Assembly: GCA_015143295.1 (NCBI GenBank)
Contig: CM026556.1
Location: forward strand, 15,934,547 to 15,998,546
Direction: 5' to 3'
Length of the DNA: 64,000 bases
DNA from: Tetracentron sinense
Taxonomy: Eukaryota > Streptophyta > Magnoliopsida > Trochodendrales > Trochodendraceae
The position numbers were made by a program, and so were the translations under genes. Below the pieces are notes generated by a model, which saw only the letters and a program-made list of their open reading frames with translations, ran no database searches and was not told the DNA's origin. Positions 3,361-57,219 of this stretch are shown here, in pieces (positions within the stretch are counted from its first letter, which is position 1; the number at the start of each line of letters is the position of its first letter).

Positions 3361-4561
3361 CTTGCACGACATCGTCGGATGCACGTGCGTCTCTCTCGGA
3401 TAAGGCAAAGACTCAGCCCTGTGTGGCTGAGCGAGGAGGCCGGGTAGACTGTGAGGCCCTCGAAGCCTGAGAAGAGCTAGGCTGAGATGTCTGCCAAATC
3501 GGGGGCCTGCTACCCGAAGACGGAGCTGGCAATTGACGTCGGGGACAATCTCTAACCATGTGACCATGGTCACCACAATGGAAGCAACTTCCTGAAACCC
3601 TCCGGCATTCTCCTACTGGATGCCTCCTTCCACAAAGAGTGCAGACCTCATGTGAATAGAGGGAAGGAGCATATGAGGTAGCCGGGCGAAAAGCCGGTGG
3701 AGCAAAAGAGCGAGGGGCCTGTGGTGCCGAATACATCCTCTGTGACTGAGCCGGCCCTGTGGACTGATACAAGCCAGTCCTTGCTCTTTTCTCCCCTGAA
3801 CTACTTGACTATCCTTTCTACATTCCTCTTCTCTTAAAGAACTCTTCGGAATTCGACTCGGCCAACAATGCCTTGTCCACAACTTCTGAATATGTCTCAT
3901 GTCGGAACATTAAGACACGATCCTTGAGGTAGGCCTTCAACCCCCTCTCAAATTTCCGGGCCTTCATTGCCTCGGTAGCTATCATGTGTGGAGCAAATCG
4001 AGATAGCTCTGAAAATTTGGCTTCATAAGCCGCTACGAACATATTACCTTGCTCCAAGGTAATAAATTCCACTTCCATCTTCTCTCTCAGTCCGACCGGA
4101 AAGTATTTCTTGTTGAAAGCTTCCAAGAAACCCCCCCAAGTCCAATCTTGACCTTGCCGGGTCAACTCTCGGGTCCGAAGTGCGGATTTCCACCAATGGT
4201 CGGCCTCCCCTTCAAGCAAAAAGGCGGCCCAAGTGACCCTTTCCACTTCCGTAGGTGCCAATACCGAGAATATCTTCTCAAGTTGCCGAATCCAACCCTC
4301 GGCGACAAGTGGATCAATGCTTCCACAAAAAGTTGGAGGCCTCATCCTCCAAAAAGCTTCTATCCCGGCTTGGGCTCGGTTAGGAGGAGCCAGAATAAGT
4401 GCCGCATTAGGTGGAGTGGCCGGTTGCCTTGTCGCCAACATAGCCAAAGTCTCGGCTATGGATGCGAATGCTTGGGCAAAGTCGGGTTGATCATCACCCG
4501 ATGGAGCATCACCTCCATTACCCCTCGTGTTGTACCCGCGACCCCGGGTATTGCGTCTCAT
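3361..4561 (-). pseudogene. Element A gag
   Basis: Gag starts with MRRNTRG at 4561. The capsid-like retrotransposon Gag domain follows (WAAFLLEGEADHWW, then FSELSRFAPHMI). The C-terminal part has a CX2CX4HX4C zinc knuckle (CFHCGDHGHMVRDC near 3580-3540). Two stop codons lie close together near 3818 and 3808, after EEFFKRRGM, and another near the end of the knuckle tail around 3415, so it cannot make full Gag. A good 3' splice site (TTCTCAG) sits just upstream of the ATG, as in B and D. Confidence 0.9.
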
Positions 4562-4852
4562 GATTTCTCCTGAGAACGACAATACAACATGAGTCTAACA
4601 TGGATACGCATTTAGTACAAATTTCGCAATTCGCTCAATACATATTCATCAAGCATATTTAGTAAGCACAACACAATTAATGCACATATGGTATACAACA
4701 CAACATCATCCATACAATCCGTGTTCCTAGCGTAGGACTCTAAGTTTGGGTGAGATTCAACCCATTTTGACTAGGACTAACTTGTTAGTCCATACTTGGA
4801 ATACAACTAATGCCTTGTTCAATCATGGTCTCTAGTACTACGCGACCCTAGG
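4562..4852 (-). other. Element A 5' leader, distal part
   Basis: Untranslated leader of A between its primer site and gag. It was cut from its first 37 bases (24508-24544) by insertion of the B-D array. Joining the two pieces gives the same order as the leader of B, including GATTGAACAAGG. No gene is seen here. Confidence 0.85.
4848..4852. repeat. Left target-site duplication of the B-D array (ctagg)
   Basis: CTAGG directly before the LTR start at 4853 matches CTAGG at 24508-24512 directly after the LTR end at 24507. One TSD for a unit of three LTRs and two internal regions shows it sits at a single integration site. Confidence 0.92.
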
Positions 4853-5065
4853 TGTAGCACCCCGGATTTTTCTATACTTAATGAATACCGTTTTCGTAGC
4901 TAATTGACCTTCCTCATAGTCTAATTAATAAATAAGAGAGAAATCAAAAATTCTGAAATGTCAGAAATGTGCATTTTCGAAAGACGAACCCAACGCAAGT
5001 TGAATCGTCAAAATCCGACGAGCGAGTCAAAAGATATGGTCAAAACAGTCCAGACATACAGAGCA

Positions 5066-5250
5066 CCGATCGCTCGGTCCAGTTAGCGATCGATCGGTCC
5101 ATAACCGATTGATCGGTAGCTATCGTACGGTCCGAAATTTTGTATGAGGAAATTTTTCAGAGAGTGAGTTTTGGACCGGTCGATCGGTCATAAACACCTA
5201 TCGCTCGGTAGGCAACCGATCGATCGGTCATAACCACCGATCGCTCGGTC
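5066..5250. repeat. Palindrome cluster of LTR B
   Basis: About eight copies of ACCGATCGATCGGT and near variants (for example ACCGATCGCTCGGT) in 185 bp, interrupted by the spacer TTTTGTATGAGGAAATTT. It is preceded by a block conserved in other families (CCAACGCAAGTTGAATCGTC at about 4988). Likely a proximal promoter module by position. Confidence 0.88.
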
Positions 5251-5639
5251 TTCGCGTTTTTGCAGAAATTTCAGTAAGGGCGTTTTCGTCTTTTGGGTGT
5301 TAAACCCTTACCCATAAGGGTTTGCTCGACCCTTTGAGCCCTCATTCACAACCCTTAGACATTTTGAGAGCTAGAGAGTGAGAAGAAGAGGGTTTTGACC
5401 TAGGGTTTCCATTGAGGAAGAAATCAAAGGGGTGGACCATCCTTGGTCGTCCTCAAACTTGGATTTGCTTCAAGTTCAAGGCTCAAGCTCGTGTGGGAGC
5501 CACTCTCCAAGCTAGGGCAGCCATCTCACGTACATTTTGAAAGGGGTTTCTTCCCCAACTCGAGTCTTCCTCAAGCAAGGGTTGTTCCCTACCCCTTTTG
5601 GAGCTTCAATCAAGTTTCCCACCAAGGATCAAGCCTTGA

Positions 5640-5650
5640 GCAAGGTTAGT
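5640..5650 (+). promoter_or_regulatory. Conserved 5' splice-site-like sequence in the LTR
   Basis: The sequence CAAG|GTTAGTACAC fits a plant donor and recurs at the same place in LTRs P, A, C, middle and D, with AAG|GTAGATACAC in H and AGAG|GTAGAT in F. Between the TATA region and this point B, C, P and A contain no ATG, while many ATGs follow it. This is what a non-coding first exon would look like. Confidence 0.45.
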
Positions 5651-6231
5651 ACACCCTACTAACTTCCCCTAACAATAACCTAGTTTTCTATGAACTATAT
5701 GATTTTGCTACTATGTATTTCTCCCTTATGAAATGTATCATATTCCCTAAATATAAATAAGGTGAGGAAAATGGTGTGGATGCATGGATGAGAGGTTGAT
5801 TGAGGCGATGGGATGCCGAATGTATGGTGTATGAATGTGTGGTGTGAAGAATGGGAAATGGAGGATGGGCATTTTACCAATAATGAACATACCTTGATTT
5901 TTGGATGGAAAGTAGGCACTAAAAAGAAGAAGATGAACCATTAAGGAACCTTGCATGTTATGTGTTTGACAAAATGCCTAAACTAGGAATAAATGACATA
6001 AATGAAGAAAATGAAAGTAGGCCTTATGCATGTGTTCTTATGAATGATAAACTATTCAAATGCCACGTAGATTACTCAAATTCCTATATGGTTATACAGT
6101 GGATTGAATTACTATACACTACTCTTCATGTCATATTGTCATCATGATATTACAAGTGCTACACACACCACACATGCATGCATGAAACCGGGTTTTCCAA
6201 GATTGTATTTGTATATGATGAATCAAGAACA

Positions 6232-6286
6232 TGACAAGGAGGTTGGTAGCCCAAGGAAGGGTGCTAGCCTCTGGCTCACAAGTATA
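6232..6286 (+). repeat. Single hairpin unit in LTR B
   Basis: GAGGTTGGTAGCCC pairs with GGGTGCTAGCCTC across a short loop: 13 pairs counting G-U, with one bulged G. This is the repeat that is expanded in the other LTRs of the family. Confidence 0.7.
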
Positions 6287-6557
6287 CAAGTCAAGAACAA
6301 ATCAAGACATGAAATACAAGACAAGACACGACACACATACATGATTTGACCGAGACACGAAAAAGGTTTCCGAGACATGAATTTTACCGAGGTTTTTGCA
6401 TTCATACACGCATGTCAAGATATGGCTATGTATATTATGCTTTCACTATTGCTTTAAATTATTATCTTGTATTGCTCACTGTTGTTATGCTTTCGTTATT
6501 GTTATGGTTAGCTAGTAGTTTGTACTCGCTGAGTATTCCATGCTCAGCCGTACTTTT

Positions 6558-6698
6558 ATGTCGGTAGGTATTGTGGATGTCCTCGACCCCGAGCCTTGGG
6601 TCGAGGAGGAGTATGTAGAGGAGAGGGAGCCACCTATCCCATGGCAGTCTCAGGAGGATGGGGACTTGGATGTGTGGCCATACCTCGACTACTGTTGA
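6558..6698 (+). CDS. Conserved LTR micro-ORF, 46 residues (copy in LTR B)
   Basis: ATG to TGA, 46 codons, strongly acidic, with the core DPEPWVEEEYVEE and the end PYLDYC. The ATG lies about 11 nt after the conserved GCTGAG/CTCAGC hairpin. The same frame recurs in all eight other LTRs of this window where the region survives, including families that differ widely at nucleotide level (F, H, K), and the tail D-[YF]-C-stop is kept. I recognise no domain. It could be a real small protein, or codon-like conservation forced by an RNA structure. It ends about 280 bp before the LTR end. Confidence 0.5.
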   Translation: MSVGIVDVLDPEPWVEEEYVEEREPPIPWQSQEDGDLDVWPYLDYC

Positions 6699-6979
6699 GA
6701 GGAGAGGGTTAGAGAGTTCCTTTTTGTATTTTGATAGGTGGGCATGTCCACCTTTACTTTGATTGTATTTGGTATATGTTAACTTGGAATACTATTTGGA
6801 GTTATAGAAGAAAAGAAAAAAAGTTGGCTTATACTTCCGCACTTATGTTTAGTTTCCGCGCTCTGATTATCATTGTATTATATTATGTTTAGCCTCTTGC
6901 ATTACAGGATGGTTTGACAGGTACACGTAGTCACCTCTAAAGTATCCCTTAAGTCCTAGGGGTATTTTGGGGCGTGACA

Positions 6980-7307
6980 GAGGTGGTATCAGAGCTCTAG
7001 GCATTAGAGTCCCTAGGGTCACTTAGATGATTGAACAAGGTATTAGAATCACCTTAGAGAGTTGCATTCCAAGTATAGACTAACCAGTTAGTCTTAGTCA
7101 AAATGGGTTGAACTTCAACCGAACATAGAATCCTACGCTAGGAACACGGATTATATGTTATGCTATTGTGTTATATACCATGTGTACATTAATTGTGTTG
7201 TACTTATTAAATATGCTTGATGAATATGTATTGAGTGAATTGCGAAATTTGTACTAAATGCGTATCCAAGTTAGACTCACGTTGTATTGTCGTTCTCAGG
7301 AGAAATC
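6980..7307 (+). other. Primer-binding site and 5' leader of unit B
   Basis: TGGTATCAGAGC at 6984-6995 is complementary to the 3' end of plant initiator Met tRNA and marks the start of minus-strand DNA synthesis. The rest is untranslated leader with no gene. It ends in a polypyrimidine-type acceptor TTCTCAG at about 7291-7298, ten bases before the gag ATG. Confidence 0.92.
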
Positions 7308-8544
7308 ATGAGACGCAATACCCGGGGTCACGGGTACAACATGAGGCGTAATGGAGATGATGCTCCATCGGGTGACGATCAACCCAACTTTGCCCAAGCA
7401 TTCGCATCCATAGCCGAGACTTTGGCTATGTTAGCGGCAAGGCAACCGGCCACTCCGCCTAATGCGGCACTTATACCGGCTCCTCCTAACCGAGCCCAAG
7501 CCGGGATAGAAGCTTTCCGGAGGACGAGGCCTCCAACTTTTTGTGGAAGCATTGATCCACTTGTAGCCGAGGGTTGGATTCGGCAACTTGAGAAGATATT
7601 CTCGGTATTGGCACCTACGGAAGTAGAGAGGGTCACATGGGCTGCCTTTATGCTTGAAGGCGAGGCCGACCATTGGTGGAAGTTTGCACTTCGGACCCGA
7701 GAGTTGACCCGACAAGGCCAAGAATGGACATGGGGAGAATTCTTGGACGTTTTATACAAGAAGTACTTTCCGGTTGGGATGAAAGAAAAGAAAGAAATCG
7801 AATTTATTACCTTGGAGCAAGGTAATATGTCTGTAGCGGCTTACGAAGCCAAGTTCTCTGAGCTATCTCAATTTGCTCCACACATGATAGCTACCGAGGC
7901 TATGAAGGTCCGGAAATTCTAGAGGGGGTTGAAGGCCTACCTCAAGGATCGCGTCTCAATGTTCCGACATGAGACATATTCAGAAGTTGTGGACAAGGCA
8001 TTGTTGGCCGAGTCGAATTCCGAAGAGTTCTTTAAGAGAAGAGGAATAGAGAAGGGACAGTCTAGTAGTTCAGGCGAGAAGAGAGCTAGGACTATGTCTT
8101 ACCAGTCCGCTGGGCCGGCTCAGTCACAGAGGATGTACTCGGCACCACAGGCCCCCCGCCCTTTTGCTCCACCGGCTTTTCGCCCGGCTACCTCGTATGC
8201 TCCTCGCCCCGCAGTGACTCAGGCTATGGGTTATACTCCTCCCACTTATTCACATGATGTCTGCACCCTTTGTGGAAGGAGCCATCCAGTAGGGGAATGT
8301 CGGAAGGCTACAGGAGGCTGTTTTCATTGTGGCGACCAGGGCCACTTGATTCGGGATTGTCCCCGACGTCGATTACCAGCTCAGTCTTCGGGGAGCAGGC
8401 CCCCGATTAGGCAGACATCTGAGCCTAGCTCTTCTCAGGCTTCGAGGGCCTCACAGTCTACCCGGCCTCCTCGCCCAGCCACTCAGGGCCGAGTCTTCGC
8501 CCTATCGGAGAGAGACGCACGTGCATCCGACGATGTCGTGCAAG
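7308..8544 (+). pseudogene. Unit B gag
   Basis: Gag from MRRNTRG through the capsid-like domain (WAAFMLEGEADHWW) to a zinc knuckle CFHCGDQGHLIRDC near 8320-8362 and a Ser/Pro-rich tail. An in-frame TAG at 7920-7922 (a multi-base change at KFERG) stops it after the capsid domain; the frame then continues open. Without splicing the frame would close 26 bases into the intron. Confidence 0.92.
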
Positions 8545-8680
8545 TTACGCAAAAAAATTTTACAATCTAAGTTGTGTAAATTTCTATGGTTTATTATGTG
8601 ATTATTTATACTAAGGGTTACCTATGTATGATGCTTGTTGTTGTTTGAAATATACTAATAGTAGCTACTTAATCGCACAG
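8545..8680 (+). other. Candidate gag-pol intron, unit B (donor mutated)
   Basis: Same 136 bp as in A and D, with branch-like TACTAAT and acceptor TCGCACAG|GCGC. The donor reads CAAG|TTACGC instead of CAAG|GTACGC, so the invariant GT is lost and this copy should not splice here. Confidence 0.65.
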
Positions 8681-12103: not shown

Positions 12104-13486
12104 TGTAGCACCCCGGATTTTTCTATACTTAATGAATACCATTTTCGTAGCTAATTGGCCTTCCTCATAGTCTAATTAATAAATAAGAGAGAAATCGGAA
12201 ATTCCGAAATGTTAGAAATGTGCGTTTTCGAAAGACGAACCCAACGCAAGTTGAATCGTCAAAATCTGACGAGCGAGTCAAAAGATATGGTCAAAACAGT
12301 CCAGACATACAGAGCACCGATCACTCGGTCCAGTCAGCGATCGATCGGTCCATAACCGATCGATCGGTAGCTATCGCACGGTCAGAAATTTTTTATGGGG
12401 AAATTTTCCAGAGAGTGAGTTTTTGACCGGTCGATCGGTCATAAACACCTATCGCTCGGTAGGCAACCGATCGATCGGTCATAACCACCGATCGCTCGGT
12501 CTTCGCGTTTTTGCAGAAATTTCAGTAAGGGCGTTTTCGTCTTTTGGGTGTCAAACCCTTACCCATAAGGGTTTGCTCGACCCTTTGAGCCCTCATTCAC
12601 AACCCTTAGACATTTTGAGAGCTAGAGAGTGAGAAGAAGAGGGTTTTGACCTAGGGTTTCCATTGAGGAAGAAATCAAAGGGGTGGACCATCCTTGGTCG
12701 TCCTCAAACTTGGATTTGCTTCAAGTTCAAGGCTCAAGCTCGTGTGGGAGCCACTCTCCAAGCTAGGGCAGCCATCTCACGTACGTTTTGAAAGGGGTTT
12801 CTTCCCCAACTCGAGTCTTCCTCAAGCAAGGGTTGTTCCCTACCCCTTTTGGAGCTTCAATCAAGTTTCCCACCAAGGATCAAGCCTTGAGCAAGGTTAG
12901 TACACCCTACTAACTTCCCCTAACAATAACCTAGTTTTCTATGAACTATATGATTTTGCTACTATGTATTTCTCCCTTATGAAATGTATCATATTCACTA
13001 AATATAAACAAGGTGAGGAAAATGGTGTGGATGCATGGATGAGAGGTTGATTGAGGCGATGGGATGCCGAATGTATGGTGTATGAATGTGTGGTGTGAAG
13101 AATGGAAAATGGAGGATGGGCATTTTACCAATAATGAACATACCTTGATTTTTGGATGGAAAGTAGGCACTAAAAAGAAGAAGATGAACCATTAAGGAAC
13201 CTTGCATGTTATGTGTTTGACAAAATGCCTAAACTAGGAATAAATGACATAAATGAAGAAAATGAAAGTAGGCCTTATGCATGTGTTCTTATGAATGATA
13301 AACTATTCAAATGCCACGTAGATTACTCAAATTCCTATATGGTTATACTGTGGATTGAATTGCTATACACTACTCTTCATGTCATATTGTCATCATGATA
13401 TTACAAGTGCTACACACACCACACATGCATGCATGAAACCGGGTTTTCCAAGATTGTATTTGTATATGATGAATCAAGAACATGAC

Positions 13487-13838
13487 AAGGAGGTTGGTAG
13501 CCCAAGGAAGGGTGCTAGCCTCTGGCTCACAAGTGAAATGAATCAAGAACATGACAAGGAGGTTGGTAGCCCAAGGAAGGGTGCTAGCCTCTGGCTCACA
13601 AGTGAAAGGGTGCTAGCCTCTGGCTCACAAGTGAAATGAATCAAGAACATGACAAGGAGGTTGGTAGCCCAAGGAAGGGTGCTAGCCTCTGGCTCACAAG
13701 AGAAATGGAACAAGAACATGACAAGGAGGTTGGTAGCCCAAGGAAGGGTGCTAGCCTCTGGCTCACAAGATAAATGGAACAAGAACATGACAAGGAGGTT
13801 GGTAGCCCAAGGAAGGGTGCTAGCCTCTGGCTCACAAG
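13487..13838 (+). repeat. Minisatellite of hairpin units, middle LTR (five full, one partial)
   Basis: About 70-bp units of the form AAGGAGGTTGGTAGCCC - short loop - GGGTGCTAGCCTCTGG. A short partial unit near 13605-13631 is shared with the D 3' LTR, which points to common descent of these two LTRs. Confidence 0.9.
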
Positions 13839-14113: not shown

Positions 14114-14290
14114 ATGTCGGCAGATACTGTGGATGTCCTCGACCCTGAGCCTTGGGTCGAGGAGGAGTATGTAGGGGAGAGGGAGCCACCTATCCCATGG
14201 CAGTCTCAGGAGGATGGGGACTTGGATGTGTGGCCATACCTCGACTACTGTTGGGAGGAGAGGGTTAGAGAGTTCCTTTTTGTATTTTGA
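14114..14290 (+). CDS. Conserved LTR micro-ORF, middle LTR (stop lost)
   Basis: Same frame as at 6558, but the terminal TGA is TGG at 14252-14254, extending it by 12 codons to 14290. MSAD replaces MSAG. The core DPEPWVEEEYV is kept. Confidence 0.4.
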   Translation: MSADTVDVLDPEPWVEEEYVGEREPPIPWQSQEDGDLDVWPYLDYCWEERVREFLFVF

Positions 14291-15822
14291 TAGGTGGGCA
14301 TGTCCACCTTTACTTTGATTGTATTTGGTATATTGTAACTTGGAATACTATTTGGAGTTATAGTAGAAAAGAAAAAAAGTTGGCTTATACTTCCGCACTT
14401 ATGTTTAGTTTCCGCGCTCTGATTATCATTGTATTATATTGTAGCACCCCAGACTTTTTCATCCTTAATGAATAGCACCTTCGTAGCTAATTGGCCGTTT
14501 TGTAGTCTAATTAATAAATAAAGGAGAAATCGGAAATTCCGAAACGTCAGAAATGTGCGTTTTCGAAAGACGAACCCAACGCAAGTTGAATCGTCGAAAT
14601 CCGACGAGCGAGTCAAAAGATATGGTCAAAACAGTCCAGACATACAGAGAACCGATCGCTCGGTCCAGTCAGCGATCGATCGGTCCATAACCGATCGATC
14701 GGTAGCTATCGCGCGGTCAGAAATTTTGTATGGGGAAATTTTCCAGAGAGTGAGTTTTGACCGGTCGATCGGTCATAAACACCGATCGCTCGGTAGGCAA
14801 CCGATCGATCGGTCATAACCACCGATCGCTCGGTCTTCGCGTTTTTGCAGAAATTTCAGTAAGGGTGTTTTCGTCTTTTGGGTGTTAAACCCTTACCCAT
14901 AAGGGTTTGCTCGACCCTTTGAGGCTTCACTTACAACATTTGAGGGATTTGAGAGATAAGAGAGAAAAGAAAAGGCTTTCCTAAACCTAGGTTGCTTTTG
15001 GAGAAGAAATCAAAGGGGTGAAGACCCTAGATCGTCCCCAAGCACGTTTTCTTTAAGATTTCGACTCAAGCTCGGGTGGGGTGCATTCTCAAAGCTAGGG
15101 CAGCCCTCACTCACGTTTTTGAAAGGGAGTTCTTCCCCAACACAAGTCCCCTTCAAGCAAAGGCTTCCTCCTTTCAAATAGAGCTTTTATTTCAAGGTTT
15201 CTCCAAGGATCAAGCCTTGATTTAAGGTTAGTACACCCTACTAACTTACCCTAGCAATAAATCTAGGTTTTTCCTTATGAAATATGATTCTTGTTAGTGT
15301 GTTTTATTCCTTGCAAAATGTGTCATCTATAATAAATATAAACAAGATAAAGAAAGAGTAGGGATGCTTGGATGGAGGTTGGATACGGCGATTGGATGCC
15401 GAATGTGTGATATATGATGTGTGGGATGTGGATTGGAAAATGGAGGATGGGCATTGTACAAATAACAAACTTACCCTTGTGTGATTGAATGAAAAATATG
15501 CATTAAAAAGAAGGAGATAAACTACTAAGGAATAACGTATGAAAGTGTTTGACAAAATGCCTAAACTATGAATAAATGATCTCAATGAAGGACATGGAAA
15601 TGGGTTTTATGCATGTGTCCTTATAAATGATAAATTGATCAAATGTTATGCAAACTACTTATGTTACTTATGTTCATATCATGAATTGAATTATAATGTC
15701 ATATTTGGTTATTTCCATTATCATGATTGTCACTATGGACACGTACACGAGCACGCATGATAGCATGAACCGTGATTTCAAGAGCATGTGCATATAATAA
15801 ACAACAAGAAATATTGCATGTC

Positions 15823-16065
15823 AAGGAGGTTGGTAGCCCAGGGACATTCGGGTGCTAGCCTCTGGCTCACAAGTGCATTGCATAACAAGGAGGTTGGTAG
15901 CCCAGGGACATTCGGGTGCTAGCCTCTGGCTCACAAGTGCATTTCATAACAAGGAGGTTGGTAGCCCAGGGAGGATTCGGGTACTAACCTCTGGCTCACA
16001 AGTGCATTGCATATCAAGGAGGTTGGCAGCCCAGGGAGATTCGGGTGCTAGCCTCTGGCTCACAA
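15823..16065 (+). repeat. Four-unit hairpin minisatellite in solo LTR C
   Basis: Units of 63-65 bp. Compared with each other the stems show pair-preserving changes: U-G becomes C-G in unit 4 (GGCAGCCC), and G-U or U-G pairs become U-A in unit 3 (GGGTACTAACC). Confidence 0.88.
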
Positions 16066-16356
16066 GTTTACAAGATGGAGGTTTACAAGATGATGATCAT
16101 GCATTCATGCATGCACGCATACATGATTTCTACGAGGCATACCAGGACATGACAAGGGTTTTCAAGCATGAGTTTTATCGGCATTTTCGCATTCATGTAC
16201 GCACGTCAGGATGCTTGTATTGTGTCATGCCCTATACTGTTTCTTTGTGATGTTTCTATTACTGCTTGTATGATATTACTATTATGTGTTTTTATTATTG
16301 TTATGGTCTGCTAGTAGCTTGTACTCGCTGAGTATTCCATGCTCAGCCGTACTTTC

Positions 16357-16497
16357 ATGTCGGCAGGTACTGAGGGAGCCCTCGACCCGGAGCCTTGGGT
16401 CGAGGAAGAGTATACAGAGGAGAGAGAGTCGGCTATCCCATTACAGTCTCAGGCGGACCGAGACCTCGATGCGTGGCCATACCTCGACTACTGTTGA
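16357..16497 (+). CDS. Conserved LTR micro-ORF, solo LTR C
   Basis: Intact 46 codons, start MSAGTEGALDPEPW, end DAWPYLDYC. It differs from the B copy at many third positions and at about a dozen residues, but keeps length, acidity and both termini. The conserved hairpin precedes it at 16327-16347. Confidence 0.5.
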   Translation: MSAGTEGALDPEPWVEEEYTEERESAIPLQSQADRDLDAWPYLDYC

Positions 16498-16781
16498 GGG
16501 GAGAGTATGAGAGGGTTTGGTGTATTTTGATATTTTGATAGGTGGGCCTCTCCACCTTAGGCTTAGACATGTCTTGTATTTATGTTAACTTGGAATACTA
16601 TTTTGGATCATCAGAAGAAATGAAAATTTGTTTACGCTTCCGCATATATGATAGCTTCCGCGCTCTGATTATCGTTATGAGTACTGTATTTTATCTTGTG
16701 CATTACAGGATGGTTTGATAGGTTCGCAGTGTGACACCTAAAATATCCCTAAACTCCTAGGGGGTATTTTGGGGCGTTACA

Positions 16782-16883
16782 TATATTATGTTTAGCCTCT
16801 TGCATTATAGGATGGTTTGACAGGTACACGTAGTCACCTCTAAAGTATCCCTTAACTCCTAGGGGGTATTTTGGGGCGTGAGA
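16782..16883 (+). mobile_element. Middle LTR of the array, right end
   Basis: Continues the LTR interrupted at 14439, after the TATAT duplication. It ends GTGAGA, a mutated form of the GTGACA terminus, directly before the leader of unit D. Confidence 0.92.
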
Positions 16884-17211
16884 GAGGTGGTATCAGAGCT
16901 ATAGGCATTAGAGTCCCTAGGGTCACTTAGATGATTGAACAAGGTATTAGAATCACCTTAGAGAGTTGTATTCCAAGTATAGACTAACCAGTTAGTCTTA
17001 GTCAAAATGGGTTGAACTTCAACCGAACATAGAGTCCTACGCTAGGAACACGGATTGTATGTTATGCTATTGTGTTATATACCATGTGTACATTAATTGT
17101 GTTGTACTTATTAAATATGCTTGATGAATATGTATTGAGTGAATTGCGAAATTTGTACTAAATGCGTATCCAAGTTAGACTCACGTTGTATTGTCGTTCT
17201 CAGGAGAAATC
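16884..17211 (+). other. Primer-binding site and 5' leader of unit D
   Basis: TGGTATCAGAGC at 16888-16899, then a leader nearly identical to that of B, ending in the TTCTCAG acceptor-like site just before the gag ATG. No gene is seen. Confidence 0.92.
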
Positions 17212-18474
17212 ATGAGACGCAATACCCGGGGTCGCGGGTACAACACGTGGGGTAATGGAGGTGATGCTCTATCGGGTGATGATCAACCCGACTTTGCCCA
17301 AGCATTCGCATCCATAGCCGAGACTTTGGCTATGTTAGCGGCAAGGCAACCGGCCACTCCGCCTAATGCGGCACTTATACCGGCTCCTCCTAACCGAGCC
17401 CAAGCCGGGATAGAAGCTTTCCGGAGGATGAGGCTTCCAACTTTTTGTGGAAGCATTGATCCACTTGTCGCCGAGGGTTGGATTCGGCAACTTGAGAAGA
17501 TATTCTCGGTATTGGCACCTACGGAAGTAGAGAGGGTCACATGGGCTGCCTTTATGCTTGAAGGCGAGGCCGACCATTGGTGGAAGTCTGCACTTCGGAC
17601 CCGAGAGTTGACCCAACAAGGCCAAGAATGGACATGGGGAGAATTCTTAGACGTTTTCTACAAGAAGTACTTTCCAGTTGGGATGAAAGAAAAGAAAGAA
17701 ATCGAATTTATTACCTTGGAGCAAGGTAATATGTCTGTAGCGGCTTACGAAGCCAAGTTCTCAGAGCTATCTCGATTTGCTCCACACATGATAGCTACCG
17801 AGGCTATGAAGGCCCAGAAATTGGAGAGGGGGTTGAAGGCCTACCTCAAGGATCGCGTCTCACTGTTCCGACATGAGACATATTCAGAAGTTGTGGACAA
17901 GGCATTGTTGGCCGAGTCGAATTCCGAAGAGTTCTTTAAGAGAAGAGGAATAGAGAAGGGACAGTCTAGTAGTTCAAGGGAGAAGAGAGCTAGGACTATG
18001 TCTTACCAGTCCGCAGGGCCGGCTCAATCACAGAGGATGTACTCGGCACCACAAGCCCCCCGCCCTTTTGCTCCACCGGCTTTTCGCCCGGCTACCTCGT
18101 ATGCTCCTCGCCCCGCAGTGACTCAGGCTACGGGTTATACTCCTCCCACTTATTCACATGATGTCTGCACCCTTTGTGGAAGGAGCCATCCAGTAGGGGA
18201 ATGTCGGAAGGCTACAGGAGGCTGTTTTCATTGTGGCGACCAGGGCCACTTGATTCGGGATTGTCCCCGACGTCGATTACCAGCTCAGTCTTCGGGGAGC
18301 AGGCCCCCGATTAGGCAGACATCTCCGCCTAGCTCTTCTCAGGCTTCGAGGGCCTCACTGTCTACCCGACCTCCTCGCCCAGCCACTCAGGGCCGAGTCT
18401 TCGCCCTATCGGAGAGAGACGCACGTGCATCCGACGATGTCGTGCAAGGTACGCAAAAAAATTTTAGAATCTAA
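17212..18474 (+). CDS. gag: Unit D gag, intact frame
   Basis: Open from MRRNTRG at 17212 to a TAA at 18472. The first ~230 residues carry the retrotransposon Gag capsid region (WAAFMLEGEADHWW, FSELSRFAPHMI), then a Ser/Pro-rich linker and a CX2CX4HX4C knuckle (CFHCGDQGHLIRDC). Gag forms the cytoplasmic particle that packages element RNA. I chose the ATG just after the conserved TTCTCAG; the frame is open a few codons further up but has no better start. The last eight codons (18449-18474) lie inside the candidate intron, so unspliced RNA would make Gag alone and spliced RNA would read on into protease. Confidence 0.9.
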   Translation: MRRNTRGRGYNTWGNGGDALSGDDQPDFAQAFASIAETLAMLAARQPATPPNAALIPAPPNRAQAGIEAFRRMRLPTFCGSIDPLVAEGWIRQLEKIFSVLAPTEVERVTWAAFMLEGEADHWWKSALRTRELTQQGQEWTWGEFLDVFYKKYFPVGMKEKKEIEFITLEQGNMSVAAYEAKFSELSRFAPHMIATEAMKAQKLERGLKAYLKDRVSLFRHETYSEVVDKALLAESNSEEFFKRRGIEKGQSSSSREKRARTMSYQSAGPAQSQRMYSAPQAPRPFAPPAFRPATSYAPRPAVTQATGYTPPTYSHDVCTLCGRSHPVGECRKATGGCFHCGDQGHLIRDCPRRRLPAQSSGSRPPIRQTSPPSSSQASRASLSTRPPRPATQGRVFALSERDARASDDVVQGTQKNFRI

Positions 18475-18584
18475 GTTGTGTAAATTTCTATGGTTTATTA
18501 TGTGATTATTTATACTAAGGGTTACCTATGTATGATGCTTGTTGTTGTTTGAAATCTACTAATAGTAGCTACTTAATCGCACAG
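18449..18584 (+). other. Candidate gag-pol intron, unit D (both sites intact)
   Basis: Donor CAAG|GTACGC, branch-like TACTAAT at 18557-18563, acceptor TCGCACAG|GTGC, 136 bp, AU-rich. Removing it joins gag to the protease in frame with no extra codon; left in, gag stops at 18474. The same boundaries are seen in A and B, and the acceptor is also recognisable in distant relic L. Confidence 0.75.
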
Positions 18585-22006: not shown

Positions 22007-23387
22007 TGTAGCACCCCGGATTTTTCTATACTTAATGAATACCGTTTTCGTAACTAATTGGCCTTCCTCATAGTCTAATTAATAAATAATAGAGAAATCG
22101 GAAATTCTGAAATGTTAGAAATGTGAGTTTTCGAAAGACGAACCCAACGCAAGTTGAATCGTCAAAATCCGATGAGCGAGTCAAAAGATATGGTTAAAAC
22201 AGTCCAGACATACAGAGCACCGATCACTCGGTCCAGTCAGCGATCGATCGGTCCATAACCGATCGATCGGTAGCTATCGCACGGTCAGAAATTTTGTATG
22301 GGGAAATTTTCCAGAGAGTGAGTTTTTGACAGGTCGATCGGTCATAAACACCGATCGCTCGGTAGGCAACCGATCGATCGGTCATAACCACCGATCACTC
22401 GGTCTTCGCGTTTTTGCAGAAATTTCAGTAAGGGCGTTTTCATCTTTTGGGTGTTAAACCATTACCATAAGGGTTTGCTCGACCCTTTGAGCCCTCATTC
22501 ACAACCCTTAGACATTTTGAGAGCTAGAGAGTGAGAAGAAGAGGGTTTTGACCTAGGGTTTCCATTGAGGAAGAAATCAAAGGGGTGGACCATCCTTGGT
22601 CGTCCTCAAACTTGGATTTGCTTCAAGTTCAAGGCTCAAGCTCGTGTGGGAGCCACTCTCCAAGCTAGGGCAGCCATCTCACGTACGTTTTGAAAGGTGT
22701 TTCTTCCCCAACTCGAGTCTTCCTCAAGCAAGGGTTGTTCCCTACCCCTTTTGGAGCTTCAATCAAGTTTCCCACCAAGGATCAAGCCTTGAGCAAGGTT
22801 AGTACACCCTACCAACTTCCCCTAACAATAACCTAGTTTTCTATGAACTATATGATTTTGCTACTATGTATTTCTCCCTTATGAAATGTATCATATTCAC
22901 TAAATATAAACAAGGTGAGGAAAATGGTGTGGATGCATGGATGAGAGGTTGATTGAGGCGATGGGATGCCGAATGTATGGTGTATGAATGTGTGGTGTGA
23001 AGAATGGAAAATGGAGGATGGGCATTTTACCAATAATGAACATACCTTGATTTTTGGATGGAAAGTAGGCACTAAAAAGAAGAAGATGAACCATTAAGGA
23101 ACCTTGCATGTTATGTGTTTGACAAAATGCCTAAACTAGGAATAAATGACATAAATGAAGAAAATGAAAGTAGGCCTTATGCATGTGTTCTTATGAATGA
23201 TAAACTATTCAAATGCCACGTAGATTACTCAAATTCCTATATGGTTATACTGTGGATTGAATTGCTATACACTACTCTTCATGTCATATTGTCATCATGA
23301 TATTACAAGTGCTACACACACCACACATGCATGCATGAAACCGGGTTTTCCAAGATTGTATTTGTATATGATGAATCAAGAACATGA

Positions 23388-23808: not shown

Positions 23809-24084
23809 GTATACAAGTCAAGAACAAATCAAGACATGAAATACAAGACAAGACACGACACACATACATGATTTGACCGAGACACGAAAAAGGTTTCCGA
23901 GACATGAGTTTTACCGAGGTTTTTGCATTCATACATGCATGTCAAGATATGGCTATGTATCTTATGCTTTCACTATTGCTTTAAATTAATATCTTGTATT
24001 GCTCACTGTTGTTATGCTTTCGCTATTGTTATGGTTAGCTAGTAGTTTGTACTCACTGAGTATTCCATGCTCAGCCATACTTTT

Positions 24085-24225
24085 ATGTCGGCAGGTACTG
24101 TGGATGTCCTCGACCCCGAGCCTTGGGTCGAGGAGGAGTATGTAGAGGAGAGGGAGCCACCTATCCCATGGCAGTCTCAGCAGGATGGGGACTTGGATGT
24201 GTGGCCATACCTCGACTACTGTTGA
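24085..24225 (+). CDS. Conserved LTR micro-ORF, D 3' LTR
   Basis: Intact 46 codons from MSAGTVDVLDPEPW to PYLDYC. It differs from the B copy mainly near the start (MSAGT for MSVGI) and by one Q-for-E change after SQ. Confidence 0.5.
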   Translation: MSAGTVDVLDPEPWVEEEYVEEREPPIPWQSQQDGDLDVWPYLDYC

Positions 24226-24826: not shown

Positions 24827-24967
24827 TCAACAGTAGTCGCGGTATGGCCACGCATCGAGGTCTCGGTCCGCCTGAGACTGTAATGGAATAGCCGGCTCTC
24901 TCTCCTCTATATACTCTTCCTCGACCCAAGGCTCCGGGTCGAGGGCTCCCTCAGTACCTGCCGACAT
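24827..24967 (-). CDS. Conserved LTR micro-ORF, A 5' LTR
   Basis: Intact 46 codons on the minus strand, MSAGTEGALDPEPW at the start and PYRDYC at the end. Close to the C copy. Confidence 0.5.
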   Translation of the reverse strand: MSAGTEGALDPEPWVEEEYIEEREPAIPLQSQADRDLDAWPYRDYC

Positions 24968-26894: not shown

Positions 26895-29071
26895 GTCCCA
26901 CTCTCAATATCATCAAAATATAAGTATACTCTCTCGCTATCTCAACAGAAATCGAAATTGGGCCACCTATCTAGTGCCCCTCATCCTGGTAATGATCAAT
27001 GGTAGGCTCCGGCTTGTAGTACTCTTCTTCTATCCAAGGCACGGAACCACAGACGTCGAAAGGAACACGTGCACCTGCCGACATAACATGTACGACTGAA
27101 CATGGAATACTCAGTATCTACAAACTACTAACTAACATTGAGATAATAATATCATGGACCATGCAAGACATAGAGCCGTAAAGCGTCGAAATCCATGAAA
27201 CCCATATTAGTTCCAAAACCATTTCCTTATGAGTTCTTATGAAATCCAAAACCATATGAGTTTTATGAGCATATGAGAATCAAGTCTTATGAGTTCCTTA
27301 GAGTTCTTATGAGATCCGTAAAGTTCTTATGAGTTCTTGTGAGTCGTGAGATCTTAGAGCACTTATGAGCTTGTGAGCATTCACTTATGAGACTTATGAG
27401 ATCTTATGAGCTTGTGAGGTTCTTATGAGCATAACTTAGAGCCAGACCTTAGCACCCATAAAAAGACTTAGAGCTGGGTATACAAATACCCTTCATTGAA
27501 TACATCGAAGTGGGGAGCCAAGATCATTGACCAACCTTCTCGTTGGCTTTATCAAATGGTCTCATGAGATTACTTTGAGCCAGATATGACATGTCCTTGG
27601 ATGTGCCCTATTCTTGACCAACCCTTAGTTTGGCTTTATCAACGATTTTGAGCTTGGTAGCTTATGAATTCTTAGAATTTCTTATGAATGCTTCGATAAA
27701 CCCGACTTATGAGAAAACCTTCAAATCATGCGAGACATGTAGGATATAGAGTGCATAGAGTGCCTGTGAACATCATACAATACTTAGAAAGCTTAAAAAT
27801 ATAGAAGCATAGTCATAGAATTTCAGAATAGTGATAGCTTACAAACCATGAAAATCCATCATTTCAATTCATCCAAGAACGCCTTGTAAAACATGGTTTT
27901 AGTCAAAGAATAGCCAAATGTAGATAGTAGAGTGCATCTACCTCTTGAAGGAAAGTTTTTACACTTTTGTACAATAAGAAAAAGCTTGAGGGAGCTGGGT
28001 TGAAGCTTTGAGAAAACTGGAGTAGAAGTCCCCTTTCTCAAGAACATGGACAAAACTTTCTTTTGAGAATCCCAAGCTTGAGAATCACCGTGGGGATGAA
28101 ATTCGAGCTTGGGCACACCAAAGAAGTGAAGCTTGAGCTTTTAGAACAAGGATTGAACCTTACTTTAAATTTGGGAAGAACACTTTGAAGAGTTCTTCTT
28201 CTTCTTTTCTTTCAATCTTTGTTTCAAATCTAATCTTAGGGTTTGAGTAAATCAAATCCACAAATTTCCCCTTCTATTTATAGGCTAAGGGTCGCCAAAA
28301 TCCTTTAATACCCTTCAAAAATATCCCCCAAGGTCGGTTACAACATTCAGGGTTGGTTGGAGACGTTCTGGATGGTTCATCCAGTCGATTAGATGGTTCA
28401 TCTAATCGGCTGGATGCGTCATCCAATAGATTAGATGGTGCTCTGTTTTTCTACTTTGGTATTTGGGCCATAACTTTTGACTTGGTGATTGGATTATGAA
28501 GACTCAACTTGCGTTGGACTCTACATTCAAAGAGGAACAACTTTCATGTTTTGTACAAAGCCTAATTTTGAGTTTTAATTAGGCTAAATGGGCCCACAAG
28601 TGGACTGGTCTTGGGATGACTGTCAGCAGACCAAAATTTGTAGCAGACTAGTTTGTGGAAACCTGACATTTGACTCAACTTTAACTCAGAATCTGAAAAA
28701 GTAGTAAACATGAATCTTGAAGAGAGTGTCAATACCTTTCCAAAAATGCAAAAATCACTCAATTCTGATCTGCAGTGAGAATTCTAGAGCTCCCTCAAGT
28801 TGAGATTATGGTAAGACATCCACCCTCTTTGACACTTTAGAGTATTTTATACTCTCGTTTTGGGTCCCAACCACACATACATCATTCCTTATGTTTCACA
28901 CCAAATCAATACCATAACACTCCTTTTAAAATTAGATGCTTCATCCCCATTTAAACCAACACCAAGTTCACATGGAAGACCTTGGCCTTTATATACTTTG
29001 TTCACAACACTATTCAGAACACTATTCACACACTATTCATAGGCTATGAAAGCAAGATCCGGGGTTCTACA
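26895..29071 (-). mobile_element. Element F 3' LTR (tail removed by A)
   Basis: On the minus strand it starts at 29071 with TGTAGAACCCCGGATC directly after a polypurine tract and is cut at 26895 by element A, about 230 bp short of its end. Palindrome-like cluster (ATCTAATCGGCTGG class) about 28445-28370, TATA (CCTATAAATAG) near 28283. Gene content: only the broken micro-ORF. Confidence 0.92.
26971..27084 (-). pseudogene. Conserved LTR micro-ORF, F 3' LTR (frameshifted)
   Basis: Starts MSAGARVPFDVCG, keeps PWIEEEYY, but a 1-bp loss after DEG leads to an early stop at 37 residues. Its hairpin shows a compensating change: ACTGAG pairs with TTCAGT where other copies have GCTGAG and CTCAGC. Confidence 0.5.
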
Positions 29072-33957: not shown

Positions 33958-34101
33958 TCAACAAAAATCAAAATCGAGCCACCTATCTAGTGCCCCCTCA
34001 TCCTGGTAATGATCCATGGTAGGCTTCGGCTCGTAGTACTCTTCTTCTATCCAAGGCTCTGAACCACAGACGTCAAAAGGAACACGTGCACCTACCGACA
34101 T
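33958..34101 (-). CDS. Conserved LTR micro-ORF, F 5' LTR, 47 residues
   Basis: Intact, from MSVGARVPFDVCGSEPW through IEEEYYEPK to WLDFDFC. Diverged from the B/C group at most positions outside EPW-EEEY and the D-aromatic-C end, yet in frame with a length difference of one codon. Downstream a hairpin GAGTGG/CCACTC (33917-33899) replaces GGTGG/CCACC of the B group, a compensated change. Confidence 0.5.
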   Translation of the reverse strand: MSVGARVPFDVCGSEPWIEEEYYEPKPTMDHYQDEGALDRWLDFDFC

Positions 34102-36163: not shown

Positions 36164-37300
36164 AATATTAAGTGAAATGCTATATATATATATATGTTTT
36201 CCCTTCAATAATTCACATGTCCATGAAATTGTAGAAATGCTATATGATGTTGATTATTCTTACGATCACAATAGCACCTATTGTCACGTACAAGCACGCA
36301 CACTTGCATGAACCGAGGTTTTCTCATAAGCATGTATTTCAAAAAGCATAAGAAAGGTTTTTAATGGCATTCCTAAGAAAGAAGCATAAGCATTGAAAAA
36401 GCCAAACTTTGGGTTGGTATTCTAAGATCGGTTAAGTCATGCTCACAAGGATCAAGTGTAAGATCTTGCATAAACTTCACGGATCATCAATCTCGTAAGG
36501 CTTTTCAAGTACTCATAAGAATCTCACTAGTCTAAGATCTTGCATGTCTCTACAGATCATAAGCTCACAAGAAGCTCATAAGCTCCCAAGAAGGTTCACA
36601 AGAAGGCTCACAAGCTCATAAAAAAAGTCATAAGAACTCTTAATCTCACAAGAACTCATAAGAAAACACGAGGGTCACCAGCATTCATAAGTACTCATAA
36701 GCATGCATAAGATGGTTTGATTTCCAAGAAAAGAATAAGTTTTTATGAAAGGTTTTCCATGACGGGTTTAAGCATGAATGTTGAGATTATTATTTCTTTA
36801 AATACTTGCATGCGGAATCTTGTTGTTATTGTATGGTTAGCTATTAGTTTGTGCTCGCTGAGTATTCCATGCTCAGCCGTACATGTTAAATCGATAGGTT
36901 CGTTTGACATTTACGACCCAGAGCCATGGGTTGAAGAGGAATATGTAGAAGAAAGGGATTCACCTTTCCCGTTGCAGCCACAGGAGGAGAGAGACTTAGA
37001 TGTGTGGCCATATCTAGACCATTGCTGAGCAGAGTGATAGCGAGAGGTCATTTTGTATTTTGATAGGTGGGGATGTCCACCTTTACCTTTGGATTATTTA
37101 TGTACAAACTTGGAATACCGACTATATATTGAAAAGAAATTTTTGGGTTATGCTTCCGCACTTTGATTAAAGCTTCCGCATTACTTTATGTCTCCATTAT
37201 GTTTTGTCTTGTATATTATGATAGGATGGTTTGGTATCGGAAATTGGACATCACAAGCCAAAGTACCTCTAACTCCCAGGGGGTATTTTGGGTCGGGACA
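36164..37300 (+). mobile_element. LTR G, Tekay-type, 3' part only
   Basis: The right half of a plus-strand Tekay LTR ending GGTCGGGACA at 37300; the start lies left of the window beyond F. It keeps the GCTGAG/CTCAGC hairpin (36858-36878), the micro-ORF and the GGTGG/CCACC hairpin. No primer site follows, so it is a solo LTR or a 3' LTR. It is inserted in a copia RNase H region; the flank tctac is the candidate TSD. Confidence 0.88.
36759..37028 (+). CDS. Conserved LTR micro-ORF in G, with in-frame upstream extension
   Basis: The conserved part (GSFDIYDPEPWVEEEYVEE to PYLDHC) lacks its own ATG but is in frame with an upstream ATG at 36759. That gives 89 codons whose added N-terminal part includes a hydrophobic run (NLVVIVWLAISL). 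In no other copy is the upstream frame open like this. Confidence 0.35.
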   Translation: MTGLSMNVEIIISLNTCMRNLVVIVWLAISLCSLSIPCSAVHVKSIGSFDIYDPEPWVEEEYVEERDSPFPLQPQEERDLDVWPYLDHC

Positions 37301-39050: not shown

Positions 39051-39191
39051 TCGGCAGGTGCTCAGGTTCCATTTGACTTATGTGGCACGGAGCCTTGGGT
39101 TGAGGAAGAGTACTTCGACCCGGAGCCTTCCACGGATCACCACCAAGACGATGGTCCATTAGATAGGTGTCGGGACTTTGACTTTTGTTGA
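39051..39191 (+). pseudogene. Conserved LTR micro-ORF, H LTR (no ATG)
   Basis: Forty-six codons aligned end to end with the F copy (SAGAQVPFDLCGTEPW, VEEEYFDPEP, CRDFDFC, TGA). The start region reads ATCATCGGCAGG in place of ATGTCGGCAGG, so no start codon remains. Confidence 0.45.
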
Positions 39192-39953: not shown

Positions 39954-41175
39954 ATGAGACGCGGCATTCTGGGTCGTGGTTACCATACTCGGAGATCCGA
40001 GGGTAAGGTTCAGAGAGAGAAAGAGCCGCTTTACTTTACGAATGCTATGGATTCTATAGCAGAGACTTTGGCTTTGTTGGCAGCCAGACCTACTCCTACC
40101 CCACCGGCTACTCCTGTGCCTACACCTGTTCATCACACTGCGGGGCTTGAGGCTTTTCAAAGACTACGGCCTCCGACATTTTATGGCACTCTGGACCTAA
40201 TGGTGGTAGAGTCCTGGATTATGCAGTTAGAGAAGACCTTTCGGGCTCTCTGATGTACTGAGGAGCAATGGGTCGAATGTGCTTCCTTCGTGATGGAAGG
40301 TGAAGCCAAACATTGGTAGCGAGCTGCCCAAAGGCAGAGAGATGTTGCAAAAGTAGGGGAACCCTGGACATGGGTAGAGTTCCTAGATACCTTCCATGAG
40401 CAGTACTTCCCCAGGTTCATTCAGGAACAGAAGACGAGGGAGTTTATGCTTTTAGAGTAAGGAATGATGAGCGTAGCCGAGTATGAGGCTAAGTTCACAG
40501 AGTTATCTAGATTTTCCCCACATCTAGTGCCGACTGAGGACTAACGGGTCAAAAATTTTGAAATGGGTTTGAAGGCTTTCATCCGGGATCGGGTGTCCAT
40601 TCTCCAAGTGGAATCTTGGAGAGAGATAGTAGGAAAGGCGAAGATCGCCGAGAAGAATGCAGAAGACTTTATGAGGAGAAGGGACAGTGGCTCCGGGAAG
40701 AGCATGTCTCAGGGACAATCAAGTGGTTCTTCACAGTCCGAGAAGAGGACTAGGACTGCACCATACCAGTTCTTTCAGCCGATGCCGGCTCAGAGGTCTC
40801 CTTTCGTACCCCAGGCACCGCGTCCTATGACCTCACAGGCTACGAGGGTTATGCCTCTATCTTCCTCCACATCGCAAGCATTCGAGGAGTGCGCTGTATG
40901 TGGTCGTCGGCACAAGACAAGGGATTACCGTAGATTATCAGGTGGATGCTTCCACTATGGTGAGGTTGGCCACGTGATTCGAGATTACCCGAGCAAGCAG
41001 TCTCAGACTGGGTCATAGGGAGTTCGGCCTCCAGGCAAGCAGACTTCACTTTAAGGGTCTTCATCTCAGGCCTCGAGATCCTTGCCACCCACCCAGCAAC
41101 CTCGTCAGGCTAATCAGGGCAGGGTCTTTGCCATGACAGATAGAGACGCACAGGCATCTGATGATGTTGTGCAAG
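39954..41175 (+). pseudogene. Element H gag
   Basis: Starts MRRGILGRGYHTRRSEG. Capsid region with stops near 40251 (CGA to TGA), 40317 (TGG to TAG), 40458 and 40542. The C-terminal half is open from 40563 with a decayed knuckle (CFHYGEVGHVIRDY, two cysteines changed to tyrosine), then a stop near 41017. Confidence 0.9.
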
Positions 41176-41328
41176 GTACACGCGAGTTTGATGTTGTTAA
41201 AGTTCTAGAATTACCATGATGTGTTATATATATATATATACATATGCTATGTGGTGCTTATTGTTATGCATGTGTCAATATGTATTATGCACGCAGCAAA
41301 TTATAACTCGGGTAGTTATAATTCTCAT
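41176..41328 (+). other. Relic of the gag-pol intron, element H
   Basis: Donor GTGCAAG|GTACAC is intact and at the same codon as in A and D. The expected acceptor AG reads AT (TTCTCAT|GCTCG) before the conserved protease start [12 protein letters not shown], so splicing here would fail. A (TA) run lies inside. Confidence 0.6.
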
Positions 41329-54803: not shown

Positions 54804-57219
54804 TGTAGAACCCCAAAACTTTTGTATCTCTTGGAATGCGTGTCAATACATGAAGCCTTGTAATCTCCATCCTTCCATGGAATGACAATTTGGAAACCTT
54901 TGAGAATTTTGCAAGAATGCTGTAAAATAATTAAATAAAATATTTAATAATATGTCATAGCCTTAGAAAGGTCCTAGGCATGTTCCTAGAGGGTTAGAAT
55001 AGAAGTGGGATAAGTCCAAGTAGTGGAATTGAGTAGGAAATAGACTTAGTATCAAAATTTGCAGATGACCGATCGCTCGGTCTAGGTAGCGATCAATCTG
55101 TACAAAACCGATCGATCGGTATCTATCGACTGGTCCAAAAATTTGTATGGAGAAAAATTCCAGAGGTGATTTTTGACCGAGAGCTCGGTCAAAACACCGG
55201 TCTCTCGGTAGGTGATCGATCGCTCGGTCATAACCACCGATCGCTCGGTCCTTCATGTTTTGCAGAAATTTCATGAAGGGCTTTTTCGTCTTTTGGGCAT
55301 TCCACCCTTGCCTACAAAGTCTTGCTCGAGCCAAGGGTGTTTACAAACACCCTTAGCAATATATTTGAGAGAGAGTGAGAGAGGAGAAAGAGGTTTTTAA
55401 CCTAGGGTTTCAACTTGAGAGAAATCAAGGGTTTGAGAACCCAAGATCATCTCAAAAGCTTGGATTTCTCAATCCAAGGCTCAAGCACGCGAGGAGCACC
55501 TCCTCCAAGCTCGACAACGACTCCACACACGTTTTGGAGGATTTTCCCTCATTTATTAAAGGTCGGTACCCTATGCTACCCTCCTAGTCATTCATTTTCC
55601 TCTTTTCTTTCCTTTTTAGGGTTTTTCTCCAATTTCTAAGCATGATAATGTGATGGGATGAATAGATGGAGATAGATGATTGTGTATGGGCGATGGATGC
55701 CGTGTGTATGTTTTGTGATGAATGAAATAGGAAGGGCATTGTACCATTAATGAACACACATGTATGTCATGAGTGTTAATCCATCTAGAAAAGCAAGATG
55801 TAGGCTTTAACCATAATGTACACACCAAGTGTTTGATGAAATGTCAAGATGAAGAATTGTTTCTAGAAATTCATGTATAAATTTCTTCACTTTTCTACAG
55901 CGGCATGAATATTTTTGTGTCGAAATGAATGTTTTTTCATGTATTATTGAATTTCAAATGTCACGTTTAATTTCAAGCTAAAGCATGTACACGACTTCAC
56001 GAGCACGTTTAATTTCAAGCTAAAGCATGTACACGACTTCACGAGCACGACATGCATGACATGGTTTATCGGTGTTTTTTTAAGAACAAGGAGTTTATTC
56101 TCGATTGACGAACACCATGACAAGGCCAAACGTAAGGGTTGGTAAATAGAGGTAGGGCATATCTGACGATATGTTTTGCCTCACTTTTGACAAGAACAAG
56201 AATACGACGATGACAAGAACAAGAACACGTCAAGCGAGATGTTAGTGCGCCTCCAATCATGCATGTTTACTTTATTGCACTTTTGCAAAAGAGGGGGTTT
56301 ACACTTCCCTCCCTTCAAGTTGAATATTCCATGTTTCAAAAAGAAGGGGTGTTCTATACCAACCTCCCTCACAAGCCTCATCTCATTTTCTTAAGAGGGG
56401 GTTTACACCACCCTCCCTTCAAGTTGTTCAAGGGCACTAACATCCCAAGCGCATAAGCATGTTAAATTCCAAGCAAGCATGAACATTTTAATTTCATGGT
56501 ATGACATGCATGACACGACATGACACGCATGACAAGACAAGCATGACCCGACAAGACAAGCAAGACAGAACATGACAAGACAAGTTTTTTAAGCACGAAA
56601 AGAGTATTTTAAGTCAAGTCAAGCACATGATGGTTTCAAGAGTTTTTTCGGCTTTGATGTGATGCAAGCATGAAATATAAACTGTTTACTTTCCTATCAA
56701 TTATATGAACTGCTTCCTGCTTTATTTTGCTATTATTATGCTATGACTGTTAGATAGTATTTGGTACCCGCTGAGTATTCCATTGTCAGCCGTACTTTTG
56801 ATGTCGGCAGGTGTTAGTGGAGCGCCCGCTCCTTTTGACATATGTGCTCCTCGGTCCATGGGAAGAAGAGGAGTATGTCGAGGAGGTCCCTACTGAACAG
56901 CCTCATGTAGAGGGCTATTATTAGGTGGCAGATTCTAAGTGAGTGTGGGTGACACGAGAGATTTTATACCCATGTATTTTGGGGGGCATGTCTGCACCTT
57001 TCTTTTGTTTCCACTTTTGTACAAACTTGGATCATGTACATACATAGAGGTGTTGGTTAGACTTCTGTTGTGCCATGTTAGTTTATGGTTCTGCTATTTT
57101 TTCCTCTTTTGTATATTCTCGGTGTGTTTTGCAGGATGGTTTGTCAAGCAGGTTATGTAAGTCATGATAAGTCATCCAAGATTCAGTCTAACTCCTAGGA
57201 TGGGTTTTGGGTCGCGACA
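54804..57219 (+). mobile_element. Solo LTR K, Tekay
   Basis: Starts TGTAGAACCCCAAAAC and ends GGGTCGCGACA, 2416 bp. Flanks are TGGCA and AGGCA, a TSD with one mismatch. Palindrome cluster 55068-55254, donor-like AAAG|GTCGGT near 55560, a 38-bp tandem duplication near 55967-56043, the GCATATC/GATATG hairpin near 56158 and a GCTGA/TCAGC hairpin before the micro-ORF. An old, diverged family. Confidence 0.9.
56801..56934 (+). pseudogene. Conserved LTR micro-ORF, LTR K (frameshifted)
   Basis: Starts MSAGVSGAPAPFDICAP, then loses frame by a small indel before PWEEEEYVEEV and ends YY-stop instead of DYC-stop. The most distant copy, yet the start, PFD-I-C and PW-EEEYVEE are plain. Confidence 0.45.

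Follow-up and report, generated by a model that had tools for sequence, protein, structure and literature searches.

To our knowledge, how retrotransposons with a single open reading frame (ORF) make an excess of Gag has been worked out for few of them. Most groups of plant long terminal repeat (LTR) elements with intact coding sequence carry the whole polyprotein in one ORF, according to the available part of the source (PMC6317226), and in the accessible text of another report plant LTR elements are mostly without introns, Ogre and EVADE being notable exceptions (PMC12786077). The Ty1/copia elements BARE1 and EVADE produce a spliced, Gag-only subgenomic RNA, as excerpts of two reports describe (PMC3735527, PMC12786077). 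In similarly partial texts, Ogre has a short intron between GAG-PROT and RT, the splicing of which in some transcripts allows the full polyprotein (PMC6317226), and in Cer1 CERV of C. elegans gag-frame exons are spliced to exons past pol, yielding a Gag-related accessory protein whose function is RNA export (PMC10309623). Here we report a short protein-coding stretch in the LTRs of elements found in 64,000 nucleotides of Tetracentron sinense DNA (the window), which probably serves as an alternative last exon of gag.

By their gag, reverse transcriptase and integrase the elements belong to Ty3/gypsy; the putative label Tekay/Del was given in an earlier, model-made reading of the letters alone (the sequence-only reading). 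Pfam matched Retrotrans_gag (60.7 bits), zf-CCHC, RVT_1 (83.4 bits) and SH3_Tf2-1 (90.5 bits), with rve at 24.3 bits, under its cut-off of 32.6, and Chromo at the integrase end at 24.2 bits, slightly below its cut-off of 25.1. The superfamily is different from that of BARE1 and EVADE. As in those two elements, so far as the excerpts go (PMC3735527, PMC12786077), splicing would separate Gag from Gag-Pol; EVADE drops its protease, and a frame change stops translation soon after the junction (PMC12786077, in part), whereas here the acceptor would lie in the LTR and open a selected exon. Ogre likewise has a short intron within its polyprotein region, between GAG-PROT and RT by the part of the source available (PMC6317226), whereas here the intron lies between gag and protease of a putative chromovirus, and its donor is proposed to have another partner within the LTR. 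The layout proposed below is similar to that of CERV in the portion of that report consulted (PMC10309623), except that the exon here has about 36–44 codons and lies within the LTR. In the literature searched, from which subscription journals were mostly absent, neither a coding exon carried by the LTR nor an intron between gag and pol was found described for Tekay.

A short LTR reading frame and the start of its coding unit

In the first LTR of the window (LTR A, 4853..6979, plus strand, delimited by sequence and motif as TGTAGCACC...GTGACA), the coding exon occupies 6568..6698, as judged by sequence and selection, with its stop at 6696–6698. From the stop to the end of the LTR there are 281 bp, in agreement with the distance of about 280 bp given in the sequence-only reading, which had placed the start at an ATG (6558–6560). 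The main sample comprised 40 copies, 30 found by the upstream motif CTGAGTATTCCATGCTCAGCC alone and the 10 of the window; 31 of the 40 were full length. The frame test used 14 full-length representatives at least 4% apart, namely 11 motif-sampled copies and three from the window (G, F 5' and H), which were known through the frame itself.

The ratio of nonsynonymous to synonymous differences per site (pN/pS) was 0.36 in frame, whereas the other two frames gave 1.15 and 1.30; synonymous sites were near saturation in this set. The codon-substitution check proposed with the sequence-only reading thus gave a value well away from 1, and the excess of third-position differences noted there was borne out (796 differences at codon position 1, 620 at position 2 and 1650 at position 3). 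The antisense frames gave 0.46, 1.27 and 1.89, a value as low as the first being expected where third positions vary most. Six disjoint pairs, chosen after the 14-representative result and including the three window copies, showed 73 synonymous changes over 161.4 sites and 57 nonsynonymous changes over 567.6 sites (ratio 0.22, binomial p 4.6e-17). A group lacking the usual ATG, sampled on intron-side DNA alone (94 genomic copies, 40 fetched), gave 0.32 in frame, with 0.91 and 1.07 in the other frames, and its 44-codon copies gave 0.23 against 0.81 and 2.06; pairs more than 25% apart were excluded from these group and pair analyses. Copies L009–L038 were found by protein similarity, and their ratio of nonsynonymous to synonymous rates (median 0.153) was hence not relied on.

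The LTR stretch is selected protein-coding sequence. That it is conserved non-coding DNA or RNA with an open frame arisen by chance might be suggested by the adjoining block, which is non-coding and very conserved, but the frame-specific pN/pS and the asymmetry among codon positions speak against this; we reject it and give it next to no credence.

Copies of the stretch were found far beyond the locus. The F-type peptide had 32,336 first-look candidates in the host genome (1.16 Gb), 150 of which were scored, and the upstream motif had 16,068 exact genomic copies, with none for the reversed control. In a protein database, seven candidate homologues of the encoded tail were returned, none at E<=10, and among viral contigs none of 39 pattern matches was confirmed; therefore no other plant could be compared.

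Within the window, ten LTR copies held the frame: five were open from ATG to stop, one had lost its stop, two were open without ATG and two were frame-shifted. The sequence-only reading had counted nine LTRs with five intact copies, and the number of intact copies stood. The open copies began at 6558, 16357 and 24085 on the plus strand and at 24967 and 34101 on the minus strand. Besides that of A, intact coding exons were those of E (16367..16497, plus), B (24095..24225, plus), D (24827..24957, minus) and F 5' (33958..34091, minus). In C (copy at 14114; exon 14124..14254, plus) the stop codon was replaced by TGG. The exons of G (36898..37028, plus) and H (39058..39191, plus) were open, with AAA TCG ATA GGT (copy at 36888) and TCG GCA GGT (copy at 39051), respectively, where the ATG is usually found. 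The frame-shifted copies were F 3' (27084, minus; exon 26942..27074) and K (56801, plus; exon region 56811..56950). The tail had the form EPWxEEEY...D[YF]C-stop in most types, and the net charge of four representative tails was -10 to -13. The statement that length differs by one codon only was accurate for the A, D, E and F types of the window and failed for K-type exons, which have 36 codons and a different end. Three motif-sampled copies (L055, L056 and L064) had acceptor-linked frames without EPWxEEEY, and are either decayed copies or only distantly related to the tail.

An MS[AV]G start, which the sequence-only reading had taken to be kept, was not a constant feature. Of 30 motif-sampled copies, 26 had an ATG at the usual place, codon -3, as did 8 of 10 window copies, but it was there in only 6 of the 28 F/H-type copies that could be parsed among 30 obtained by protein search; in many of these, ATGTCGGCAGGT was replaced by GACTTCGGCAGGT and similar sequences. 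By contrast, an AG was present at the site in all 30 motif-sampled copies, 29 times as AG|GT. In the ATG-less group the AG was kept in 36 of 40 copies, and no in-frame ATG occurred in the visible open stretch of 30 of 40; eight copies were open over 44 codons, and eight more over 40–42 codons to a DY-type end. Among 60 intact copies, the hairpin lay 38 nt from the AG in 30, 39 nt in 27 and 41 nt in 3, indicating that the frame is broken before the AG and kept after it. AG counts in this spacing set are conditional on finding an AG, whereas those in the motif-sampled and ATG-less sets are unconditioned.

The coding unit therefore begins at the AG, since the ATG-less group is still selected and the frame is lost upstream; a start at MSAG is rejected on the evidence of the same group. 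A free-standing micro-protein, translated from unspliced LTR RNA with an ATG at codon -3 or -9 and near-cognate codons elsewhere, would account for the ATG at codon -3 in most motif-sampled copies, for the second in-frame ATG at -9 or -10 in several types, and for the in-frame CTG or TTG codons read from the sequence of the ATG-less group. We regard it as unlikely, because pN/pS remained 0.32 in a group with so few in-frame ATGs, spacing breaks the frame upstream of the AG, and just five open codons precede the AG in several copies (L012, L057). Of the small accessory protein suggested by the sequence-only reading, the selected coding stretch and the option of expression by splicing are supported, whereas the independent micro-ORF of 46–47 codons from MSAG is not.

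The start of the unit is acceptor-like: the conserved feature is [CT]AG|GT, and ATGTCGGCAGGT appears to read as a splice acceptor. In LTR A the conserved block CTGAGTATTCCATGCTCAGCC...TCGGTAG spans 6529..6567 (plus) and ends in the candidate acceptor AG at 6566–6567. The 55-bp block before the AG was the most conserved DNA of the region, above the ORF itself. Identity between families was 76–95% over these 55 bp, 55–82% over the codons and 59–77% over the 100 bp past the stop; further upstream (-360 to -60) it fell to 56–73%, where random 130-mers reach 0.60. The earlier impression that surrounding LTR DNA aligns less well was thus right for the more distant upstream DNA and wrong for the adjoining block. 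These patterns agree better with a 3' splice site that has a coding exon behind it than with an initiation codon.

The gag-pol intron and a proposed second acceptor

In elements L072, L073 and L074, gag and pol were long separate ORFs, and a phase-1 intron lay between them (DVVQ-G|GTACNC to CAG|GN-LLVN). It measured 133 bp in L073 and L069, 142 bp in L072 and 144 bp in L074. In the second element of the window, gag up to the donor GTGCAAG|GTACGC occupies 17212..18448 and the intron, 136 bp, occupies 18449..18584 (both plus). The donor was also present in L070, L071 and the H element (GTGCAAG|GTACAC, 41163..41181, plus), and was kept in 8 of the 10 elements examined. The window F element was without the gag donor region. 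In the first window element (8535–8550) the donor was mutated at 8545, reading GTGCAAGTTACGC for GTGCAAGGTACGC, and the pol acceptor at 8674 was intact.

Exactly joined, intron-less gag-pol copies numbered 42 in the genome, compared with none for the control, and all four that were fetched were continuous from gag into protease. Because such copies exist, the gag donor is in use with pol. Donor-like sites were scanned over gag and pol of six elements with approximate weights, keeping sites that scored >3.0 in at least five of the six. The gag donor scored 8.5 in five elements and 6.6 in one, and no other conserved phase-1 donor found in gag-pol was as strong; apart from two weaker phase-1 sites, the other conserved donor-like sites were in phase 0 or 2. 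The peptide read into the retained intron past this donor was variable and ended early (GTREF, GTR and similar), so that a retained intron does not account for a selected end of Gag.

The LTR acceptor needs a phase-1 donor, and the gag donor fits it in phase, is conserved and is used; it is therefore proposed as the partner. We judge it probable that the LTR carries, in this stretch, an alternative 3'-terminal coding exon spliced onto Gag through this shared donor. One phase-1 donor (TGCAAG|GTACNC) would then serve two competing acceptors. Splicing to pol, which the intron-less copies show to happen, removes the intron of 133–144 bp and gives Gag-Pol, whereas splicing to [CT]AG|GT in the 3' LTR would skip pol and give Gag with a conserved acidic tail. 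A message of the second kind would lack the polypurine tract and U3 and so would serve translation only, yielding a Gag-only isoform. The ATG seen in many copies may be a side effect of conservation of the acceptor block.

Several observations weigh against this proposal. The gag-to-LTR splice is one that we infer from genomic DNA alone, and a search for genomic gag::LTR junctions of the A, D and K types gave 0 matches (F/H-type junctions were outside this search); the absence is weak evidence, because reverse transcription of such a product would scarcely be possible. The candidate acceptor has a poor pyrimidine tract, and an in-frame ATG lies close by in most motif-sampled copies. Covariation in the stem adjoining the AG was weak, with pairing in 158 of 176 cells, where shuffled partners averaged 155.2 and reached 158 in 84 of 2000 trials. 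Finally, there are the two weaker phase-1 sites: a gag site near -230, which scored 3.5–6.3 in five of six elements and was absent from the A-type L073, and a pol site at +2375, which scored 3.1–5.7 in five of six.

The latter two sites raise the question of another partner, be it one of them, an unknown upstream exon or host read-in transcripts, and the acceptor could be used by any transcript with a phase-1 donor. Neither site, however, is as strong as the gag donor, and the A type is without one of them; selection through host transcripts would not preserve the exon over thousands of element copies. A terminal exon with a partner other than the gag donor is accordingly a minor possibility in our judgment. 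Returning to the shared gag donor, a fuller version of that proposal holds that an alternative Gag C-terminus is kept in the LTR, that the donor is shared with pol, that the hairpin-framed acceptor sets the Gag:Gag-Pol ratio, and that the acidic EPWxEEEY tail is functional on free Gag and not on Gag-Pol. This conjunction is put forward only tentatively, and a role of the tail in assembly control or host-factor contact is a guess.

Leader region and other features of the window

A conserved donor-like block (AG|GTTAGTACACCCTACT or AG|GTAGATACACTCTACT) lies in the LTR 0.7–1.3 kb upstream of the stretch, at the end of what we call LTR exon 1. This block might suggest that LTR exon 1 is spliced to the stretch to make a small gene contained within the LTR, a disfavoured reading that we consider very improbable. 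In the required phase, LTR exon 1 reached a stop without an ATG in 47 of 48 copies, and F 3' alone was open with an ATG; 28 of the 76 copies were without a donor match in the stretch examined. Moreover, when LTRs missing the span from exon 1 to the acceptor were sought among the A, D and K types, each of the 12 candidate junctions turned out to be an acceptor with a C-to-A mutation. The single gene was rejected because of the stops. In LTR A the corresponding span, a putative intron or leader region, is 923 bp long (5645..6567, plus). LTR A's putative exon 1 (5360–5644) contained 0 ATG in about 285 nt, and other types had 1–4 in 330 nt.

An acceptor-like CTCAG|GA directly precedes the gag ATG in the A, F and K types. 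In the first element it reads TTCTCAG|GA (7293..7310, plus) before the ATG at 7308–7310, and the same sequence stands just before the gag ATG at 17197–17214 and at 33300 (minus). A primer-binding-like TGGTATCAGAGC, assigned by sequence and motif, follows LTR A at 6984 (plus). A leader intron running from the LTR exon 1 donor-like block to the pre-gag acceptor, and removing the primer-binding site, is likely on the arrangement of these motifs.

The LTRs also differed in their internal architecture. Tandem repeats of 64–69 bp, with 98-bp variants, were found at 13469–13838, 23371–23810 and 15813–16067, and LTRs differ in length because the repeat number varies. Palindromic ACCGATCGATCGGTC repeats occupied the first part of the LTRs (5060–5250, 12426–12501 and 14650–14835). 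LTR E (16146–16894) had a mosaic look: its end part matched LTR A at 76% identity for the most part, then at 96% over 16782–16894. Just outside the 5' LTR of the first element lay an inverted copy of the region around its gag start (4000–4709 against 7160–7869, 91% over 710 bp). After LTR fragment G, an ORF at 37188–37649 may be a piece of a Ty1/copia polymerase, which it resembles.

Implications for LTR retrotransposons

If the proposed arrangement is true, a gag-pol intron together with a competing LTR coding exon would offer a testable answer, in a very abundant lineage, to the question of how Gag is made in excess. Its location in the LTR would mean that 5' LTRs and solo LTRs likewise hold a terminal exon, complete with acceptor and stop, which upstream transcripts could capture. 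The LTR, usually considered non-coding, would then be able to carry a selected protein-coding exon.
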